Below are positions 14,747 through 18,004 of a DNA stretch of 64,000 nucleotides, in pieces. A program made the translations under genes and the position numbers. Positions within the stretch are counted from its first letter, which is position 1; every line of letters begins with the position of its first letter. Source of the stretch: Alphaproteobacteria bacterium (lineage in GTDB: Bacteria > Pseudomonadota > Alphaproteobacteria > JAAEOK01); NCBI GenBank assembly GCA_024244705.1, contig JAAEOK010000082.1, forward strand, positions 1 through 64,000. The letters are read 5' to 3'. The notes under the pieces are model-generated. The model did no database searches and was not told the DNA's origin. It saw only the letters and a program-made list of their open reading frames with translations.

Positions 14747-15598
14747 ATGGTCGCGCTCGTTCGCCCGTTGGCCGCCGCAATCGCCGTGGTCGCGCTCGCC
14801 GGGCCGGCGCGCGCCCAATCGCCGGTCCCGGTCGATGTCGCTTTGGTGCTCGCGGTTGACGCCTCGGGCAGCATCGATGCCGCCGAATTCGATCTACAGA
14901 AGGACGGCATCGCCGGTGCCATCACCGATCCGCTGGTGCTGTCGGCGATCGTCAGCGGACCGTTCCAGCGCCTGGCCATCGCCTATGTCGAATGGGGCGG
15001 GCCGGCGATGGCCGAGACCGTGGTCGGCTGGCATATCGTCGAGGACCGGCCATCCGCCGAGATGTTCGCCGCCGCGGTGCGCGGCGCCGGCCGTTCGCTG
15101 CAGAGCTACAACGCGATCGGCGATGCGATCGTCCACGGTGCGGCGCTGATCGAACACTGCCCGTGCGAGGCGTTTCGCGCCGTCATCGACGTCTCCGGCG
15201 ACAACCCGGACAACCGCAGCGTCGTCCCGGCGCTCGTCGCGCGCGAGCTGGCCGCCGCCGCCGGCATTACCATCAACGCGCTGGCGATCCTCGAGGGCGG
15301 GCCCGTCGGGGCTTCGGGGCGGCCCTATCTGGTCGAGAATTACGAGGCCGAAGTGATCGCCGGACCGGGCGCGTTCGTCATCGCGGCCGAGGATCGGGCC
15401 GACTTCGCCACCGCCCTGCGGCGCAAGATGATCCTGGAGATAGCCGGCACCATGCCGGGCAATATGACCGCGGCCGCGATTGGCAGATCGGGCCAGCGCC
15501 TGTATGAAGCGTCCTTGATGCCTACCACGATGCGTCGGCGCGGGATCACCGGGCGCGGACGGTCGCTCGGTTGTACTGTGAATGGATACGCATGCTAA
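14747..15598 (+). CDS. DUF1194 family exported vWA-like protein
   Basis: A 283-aa exported protein. The signal peptide covers residues 1-23 (ends ARAQ). A von Willebrand A-like fold follows, with the MIDAS metal motif DASGS in LVLAVDASGSID, and a conserved SGDNPDN motif in the middle. This is the DUF1194 family, common in alphaproteobacteria with no assigned role. It is full length, with a short divergent tail after the domain. It is monocistronic, and no obvious partner (AAA ATPase or other vWA protein) is beside it. Confidence 0.85.
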   Translation: MVALVRPLAAAIAVVALAGPARAQSPVPVDVALVLAVDASGSIDAAEFDLQKDGIAGAITDPLVLSAIVSGPFQRLAIAYVEWGGPAMAETVVGWHIVEDRPSAEMFAAAVRGAGRSLQSYNAIGDAIVHGAALIEHCPCEAFRAVIDVSGDNPDNRSVVPALVARELAAAAGITINALAILEGGPVGASGRPYLVENYEAEVIAGPGAFVIAAEDRADFATALRRKMILEIAGTMPGNMTAAAIGRSGQRLYEASLMPTTMRRRGITGRGRSLGCTVNGYAC

Positions 15599-15661: not shown

Positions 15662-16945
15662 ATGGAGGCCTCGAGCGTAACGACGATAAGCGGCCGCGCC
15701 CGTGTGGCCAGCATGATCGGCAACGCGCTGGAATGGTACGACTTTGCCATCTATGGCTATTTCGCCGCCATTATCGGCCGCCAGTTCTTTCCCAACGAGG
15801 ATCCGGCGGTCTCGGTAATCTCCGCTTTCGGTGTTTTTGCGATTGGTTTCCTCGCGCGCCCCGGTGGCTCGATCCTGTTCGGAAACCTCGGCGACCGCGT
15901 GGGCCGGCGCCGCGTACTGATCGTTTCCGTTCTTGCGATGGCTGGCCCAACCACCCTCATTGGGCTGATGCCGACCTACGAAGCTATCGGCTTCTGGGCC
16001 CCGGCCATCCTGATTATCCTGCGGCTCTTGCAAGGGCTTTCGGTCGGCGGAGAGATGACCGGTTCGATCACGTTCATGGTCGAAGGCGCGCCGAGCGGCC
16101 GTCGCGGCCTGGCCGGCAGTTGATCCTATCTCGGCGTCGGCATTGGGTTCCTGCTTGGTTCGGCGGCCGGATCATTGGTCACCGGCCTGCTCAGCCCGCC
16201 GGCGGTCGCAGATTGAGGCTGGAGAATTCCGTTCCTCTGCGGCTCCGTCATCGCCGTATGTGGCTATGTGATCCGGCGCCATGGCCTGTCGGAGGGCTAT
16301 CAACCGAAAGATACCGGCGCCCCCTGGTACACAGGACCGCTACGCCAAGCGGTGACCAAGCATGGCCGGCAGATGATTCAAGCAATTGGAATTGCCGCTT
16401 TTTTCGCCGGCGGCTTCTATCTGATCTTCGTTTATCTGACGACCTATTTGACCAGTGTTGTCGGCGACCCCGCGGCCGATGCCTTCGACATCAACTCTAT
16501 CAATATGGTCATCTATGCGGCGCTCTCAGTGGCCGGCGGCCTGCTCGGAGATCGCTTCGGGTTCGGGCGGGTGCTGCTGTCGACGGCGATCGCGGGGCTG
16601 GTCCTTGCGTGGCCGCTGTTTTGGCTTGTCGACCATGGCAATCCGGTGCTGGCGTTTCTTGGCCAGTTCGGCTTCGTACTGATCCTGGCACCCTATGGCG
16701 GGCTGTTCGCAACGACCATGGCGCTTCTGTTCCCGCCCGCCGTGCGCATGAGCGGCTTCTCGGTCTCTTACAATGTCGCCTTCGCCATTCTGGGCGGAAC
16801 CGCGCCTTTGGTTGCGAGCTATTTGGTACACCGCGGCGCGGGCGATCTCTCACCCGCTTACGTCTTGATGATATGCGCCGCAATTTCGATCGCATCGCTC
16901 GCCTGGGCCTGGCGCGACCTGCCGACATCCAACAAATCGGCTTAG
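15662..16945 (+). pseudogene. MHS-family MFS transporter with two in-frame UGA codons at Trp positions
   Basis: A 427-codon frame covers a complete 12-TM metabolite:H+ symporter (the ProP/ShiA/KgtP-like family): NALEWYDFAIYGYFA at the start, GRRRVL in loop 2-3, GLSVGGE in helix 4, and a last helix before LPTSNKSA. The frame never shifts, but TGA occurs at 16121-16123 and 16214-16216. Both fall where family members have Trp (G-S-W-S and A-D-W-G-W-R-I-P-F). Eight other Trp residues are encoded by TGG. Two independent TGG-to-TGA changes, or programmed readthrough, would explain this. Other genes here stop at TGA, so the standard code applies and the gene is probably dead. Confidence 0.8.
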
Positions 16946-17059: not shown

Positions 17060-18004
17060 CTAATATTCGAGCTTCGGATCGACGCGGTTCAAGAGCGGCT
17101 TGCCGGCGACGAAGCGCTCGATGTTCTTGAACACGAGGTCGAGCGTCATGCCGAGCATCGTCGACGGATTGAGGCAGACGAAATTGGTTCCCTCCGCGGC
17201 ATGCCCTTCGAGCGACTTGATATGCGGCAATTCGTGGGCGCGGTCCTCTTCGAGCAACGCCCGGGTCGTCCGGTCGTGGCGTTCTCGCATATTGAACCAA
17301 TTGCCCTTGGCCGGCTCGTTCCAGTGTTCGATCTTCTTGGCGCTGATCGAGGCCTTGTGGACCATGGGGATGTGATAATCCTCCATCGCGTTCTCGATGT
17401 GGATCTTCCAGTTGCAGTCGACCTCATGGATCTTGCGCCGGGTGCAGACCAGGTTTTCGCAACCGTAGGACGCCATGGTCTCCGGAAAATCGCCGAGATA
17501 GTCGAGCAGCGGCCCGGCGTCGTGGTCGAAGTTGACGAAGATGAAGCCGCCCCAGGTTTCGAGGCGCAATTCGATGAGCCCGTTGTCCTCGAGCCGGAAG
17601 TCTTCGGTTTGGTCCATGCCGCCGGCCCCCTTGAGCCGCCCGTCGAGGTCGTAGGACCAGCCGTGATAGGGGCAGACGAACGAACGGCAATTGCCCTCGC
17701 CGCTCATCACCATCGCGCCGCGGTGCCGGCACGTATTGGCAAGCGCACGCACCCGGCCATCCTTGCCGCGCACGATTATGATCGGCACGCCGACAAAGGT
17801 CACCGTGAAGAAGTCGCCTGGTTCCGGAATACGGTCGACTCGGCCGAAGAAATTCCACACCTTCATGAACAGGTTTTTAATTTCGGCACGATGATAATCC
17901 TCCGACGTGTAACACCACGCCGGCAGCGTTTCCGCCTCGGTGACCGGCAGCCGCGATTTGGCATAGGTCGCGGGGTCGAACATGATCTCCGGGGATACTT
18001 GCAT
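17060..18004 (-). pseudogene. Rieske oxygenase alpha subunit, truncated and joined to a 2-hydroxyacid dehydrogenase tail
   Basis: Residues 1-289 are the N-terminal two thirds of an aromatic-ring-hydroxylating dioxygenase alpha subunit. The Rieske [2Fe-2S] ligands are Cys92/His94 and Cys111/His114, and the first mononuclear-iron histidines are His211 and His216 (AMEDYHIPMVH). From about residue 290 the sequence is no longer oxygenase-like. It ends FKNIERFVAGKPLLNRVDP plus four residues, which is the standard C-terminus of D-isomer 2-hydroxyacid dehydrogenases. The oxygenase therefore lacks its last 80-100 residues, including the iron-binding Asp. A deletion between two genes, or an assembly chimera, is the likely cause. 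The protein should be catalytically dead. Confidence 0.8.

Follow-up and report, generated by a model that had tools for sequence, protein, structure and literature searches.

Two in-frame TGA codons in an otherwise intact MHS-type transporter gene of an alphaproteobacterium that uses the ordinary genetic code

The locus and its interrupted transporter gene

The stretch of DNA analysed here (64,000 nucleotides, referred to as the window) is part of contig C82 of a draft alphaproteobacterial genome of 4.5 Mb, which comprises 127 contigs and has an estimated contamination of 4.44%. The window contains a frame for an MFS transporter of the MHS type (metabolite/H+ symporter subfamily), located between two genes whose frames are intact. 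The transporter frame begins with ATG, closes with TAG and is free of frameshifts, in agreement with the initial annotation, which had described it as full length and perfect but for two stops. There are exactly two internal stops, both TGA, separated by 93 bases. Elsewhere in the gene Trp is encoded by TGG, at eight codons.

Table 1. Features of the transporter locus (positions refer to the window).
Feature	Position	Strand	Remarks
DUF1194 protein, upstream of the transporter	14747..15598	+	intact; PF06707, E=2.2e-61
MHS-type MFS transporter frame	15662..16945	+	427 codons, two TGA inside
ORF up to the first TGA	15662..16123	+	153 codons; matches MFS profiles in N-terminal part only
In-frame TGA, codon 154	16121..16123	+	Trp in 69/137 relatives
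In-frame TGA, codon 185	16214..16216	+	directly 5' of GWRIPF; Trp in 124/137 relatives
Rieske ring-hydroxylating oxygenase alpha subunit, downstream of the transporter	17060..18004	-	frame intact; PF00355 and PF00848

When both TGA codons are read as Trp, the translated protein matches the NCBIfam model TIGR00883 over residues 20-409 of 427 with E=2.1e-108, at a score (362.9 bits) that lies below the curated cut-off of 443.45. In Pfam, MFS_1 and Sugar_tr are both matched above cut-off. No PDB chain resembling the transporter by sequence was found at E up to 1e-10. The ORF that ends at the first TGA covers roughly the N-terminal third of the protein and is unlikely to work alone. The genome holds two further MHS transporters, which are uninterrupted and 41% identical, so that loss of the transporter described here may be tolerable.

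The draft also includes the plastid genome of an alga (G000:C103; 73,181 bases, loci L169-L172, 24-25% GC), which encodes atpB, tatC, rps4, dnaK, rpl2, secY, rpoA and more than 20 tRNAs. This contig is a contamination of the bin and hints at an alga-associated sample as the source of the bacterium. The transporter gene and the plastid DNA are on separate contigs.

Conservation of the gene and chance of the two stops

Relatives of the transporter were collected by tblastn and aligned (138 loci), and residues in each column were counted over the 137 loci other than the query's own. Both stops had been placed at conserved Trp positions in the initial annotation. This holds for codon 185, where 91% of the relatives have Trp and the rest have Tyr or Phe, but codon 154 is only half-conserved, with Trp in 50% of the relatives and mainly F, L, M or I in the others. 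Wherever a relative has Trp in one of these two columns, the codon is TGG without exception. The nearest homologue, from genome G337, is 56% identical to the transporter; the closest genomes among those searched belong to the same class, and none is nearer. No synteny was found between the window and the G337 genome, which makes positional orthology unusable. In G337 this MHS transporter lies directly 3' of prfB (L245:6401-8863, G337:C49), an arrangement that differs from that in the genome of the window.

Apart from the two stops, the transporter shows no sign of decay, as judged from conserved columns and branch length. All 58 columns that are conserved at 80% or more match in the transporter with TGA read as Trp, and its amino-acid branch is as long as that of the sister in G337 (0.55 each). 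The faster amino-acid change expected of an old pseudogene, though not required of a young one, is thus absent, and GC3 and codon score lie at the median of the genome. Inactivation, if real, is therefore very recent. The undecayed state also fits a gene that functions, or an error in the consensus, which for this reason stays a serious rival.

The probability of such a pattern was estimated with a simple neutral-decay model of nonsense changes. Both nonsense changes are expected to be TGG to TGA with a probability of ~0.06-0.10 if a G:C>A:T transition bias is included and of 0.02 if it is not, and, at an assumed rate of 0.1 indel per substitution, two nonsense changes occur in the absence of any frameshift with a probability of ~0.05. 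On average, ~38-54 missense changes would come with two neutral nonsense changes, and the probability that none of these falls in the 58 conserved columns is ~0.05-0.06. The joint probability is ~0.001-0.002 with the bias and 0.0003 without it. All of these values are conditional on one gene hand-picked from the window. Two TGG-to-TGA events free of any other lesion had been considered unlikely by chance. Numerically that argument is weak, amounting to ~0.05-0.1 per aspect, and the odds are modest for a gene picked by eye.

Genetic code of the bacterium and search for other interrupted genes

On the bacterial contigs a single tRNA-Trp occurs (C31:202-278), with the anticodon CCA. As read from the sequence, it has a 5-bp anticodon stem (CCGGT/ACCGG) and G24, the position at which the suppressor tRNA-Trp described by Hirsh in 1971 reportedly carries a G24A change. 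A second tRNA-Trp in the bin, also with CCA, belongs to the plastid contig. Among the full-length tRNA matches, to which a partial one at C75 (29.7 bits) does not belong, no UCA, CUA or UUA anticodon occurs, and the tRNA-Trp with a UCA anticodon that the initial annotation had suggested looking for is thus not among them. The tRNA-Sec model gave a single match above cut-off, the tRNA-Ser(CGA) at C77, and selenocysteine was rejected as the meaning of UGA.

The gene for RF2, prfB, is present (L189:1420-2580, G000:C32) and contains the canonical, autoregulatory +1 programmed frameshift site, AGGAGG-CAT-CTT-TGA-C. For this site to work, UGA has to act as a slow stop, which supports an ordinary role for UGA in termination. 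A TAA that a naive frame search placed inside prfB is merely part of the out-of-frame stretch upstream of the programmed frameshift. In the 0.86 Mb sampled for stop usage and coding frames, the window included, TGA is the most frequent stop and ends 345 of 780 coding-like frames.

We searched the whole genome for members of three families, MFS_1 (37 matches), adh_short (SDR, 52) and ABC_tran (95). Besides the transporter, in-frame stops among these ~180 matches were confined to two cases: a weak match that scored below cut-off, and the MFS match at C1:61097-61639, where the one TGA recorded is the terminal stop of the gene, which the match overran by two codons. In addition, the 0.86 Mb were scanned by codon usage for stops with a coding frame on either side, a procedure that recovered 1261 of 1877 simulated TGG-to-TGA changes (67% per site). 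The scan flagged the transporter only after a second TGA was tolerated, and it revealed no second truly interrupted gene in the 0.86 Mb. The other flagged sites, when read by eye, were gene ends, beyond which came either another gene or a non-coding frame; L220, L224, L226 and others, which have two stops of the same type in coding-like frames, were also read as gene ends. Further TGA codons at Trp sites, for which the initial annotation had proposed a genome-wide count, were therefore detected neither in the family matches nor in the scan.

Origin of the two stops

The locus thus combines two stops with an otherwise intact, conserved frame in a genome that uses its ordinary code. The gene is probably a young double-nonsense pseudogene of an MHS-type transporter, and among the four options that had been raised for it, recent inactivation by G-to-A mutation fits best. 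Two G-to-A transitions, each converting TGG (Trp) to TGA, would have occurred very recently in the lineage. With UGA as an ordinary stop, translation would halt after 153 residues and the full transporter would not be made. We infer that the bacterium does carry both TGA codons, which would leave the gene non-functional. Recent nonsense pseudogenes of bacterial transporters similarly retain a full-length conserved frame with a few stops created by G:C>A:T transitions, and the two uninterrupted paralogues elsewhere in this genome also agree with such cases. The present gene differs from them in that both lesions are TGG to TGA, with no frameshift.

A consensus error, for which the initial annotation had only suggested checking read support, is the serious rival, possible but on the whole unlikely. 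One or both TGA would then be miscalled, or would be minority-strain bases in a draft assembly of metagenome type, and the gene would be intact. The fragmentation of the assembly, its estimated contamination and the algal plastid contig in the bin all favour this reading, as do the lack of further decay in the transporter and the spacing of the two sites, which would fall inside one short read. Pseudogenes with internal stops often arise from assembly errors at low coverage (PMC11017572). Those spurious cases resemble the present one in that the internal stops are isolated, the gene is not decayed in other respects and the assembly is a draft, but here the sampled part has no general excess of internal stops. 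With no other interrupted gene in 0.86 Mb or among the family matches, the assembly does not appear to be generally error-rich, and two errors in one gene, both producing TGA at a Trp codon, would be a coincidence.

It is very improbable that the gene is expressed by readthrough, with the near-cognate tRNA-Trp(CCA) inserting Trp at both UGA codons and selection maintaining a low dose of the full transporter. If true, this would be an unusual membrane protein made via two leaky stops. Of the three bacterial stops UGA is the leakiest, Trp is the natural residue at both sites and all the conserved residues are kept. However, the base after UGA is U at one stop and G at the other, and UGA followed by U or G is said, after Poole, Brown and Tate, to be a tighter context in E. 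coli. Moreover, RF2 is intact and no RNA structure was found downstream of the stops (z +0.15 and +0.17). The tRNA-Trp has the ordinary 5-bp anticodon stem, whereas a tRNA-Trp able to read UGA has a stem of 4 bp (PMC13092985). A bacterial stop is read through at a frequency of ~1e-3 to 1e-2 (PMC10057733), and passage through both stops one after the other would yield ~1e-6 to 1e-4 of the protein. Partial readthrough, one of the options raised at the outset, would thus provide trace amounts at most, and it finds no positive support.

That the organism or the source of the contig reads UGA as Trp is suggested only by the two sites themselves, and genome-wide recoding (table 4) is excluded for practical purposes by the CCA tRNA-Trp, the UGA-dependent frameshift in prfB, the stop usage and the other genes. 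Contamination by DNA from such an organism, another of the earlier proposals, is not supported, because the GC3 (0.738) and codon score of the transporter are average for the genome (45th and 49th percentile, respectively, of 373 genes), and a foreign origin was rejected on the same grounds. In Hodgkinia, the known alphaproteobacterial case of recoding, prfB has been lost and the anticodon is UCA (PMC2704378). Hodgkinia and the present bacterium share a GC-rich genome with TGA at conserved Trp sites, but here a single gene is affected, prfB is kept, the tRNA-Trp has CCA and TGA is widely used as a stop.

The case has little importance beyond annotation, in which the gene is best recorded as interrupted, either as a pseudogene or pending reads, and should not be taken as evidence for another genetic code.
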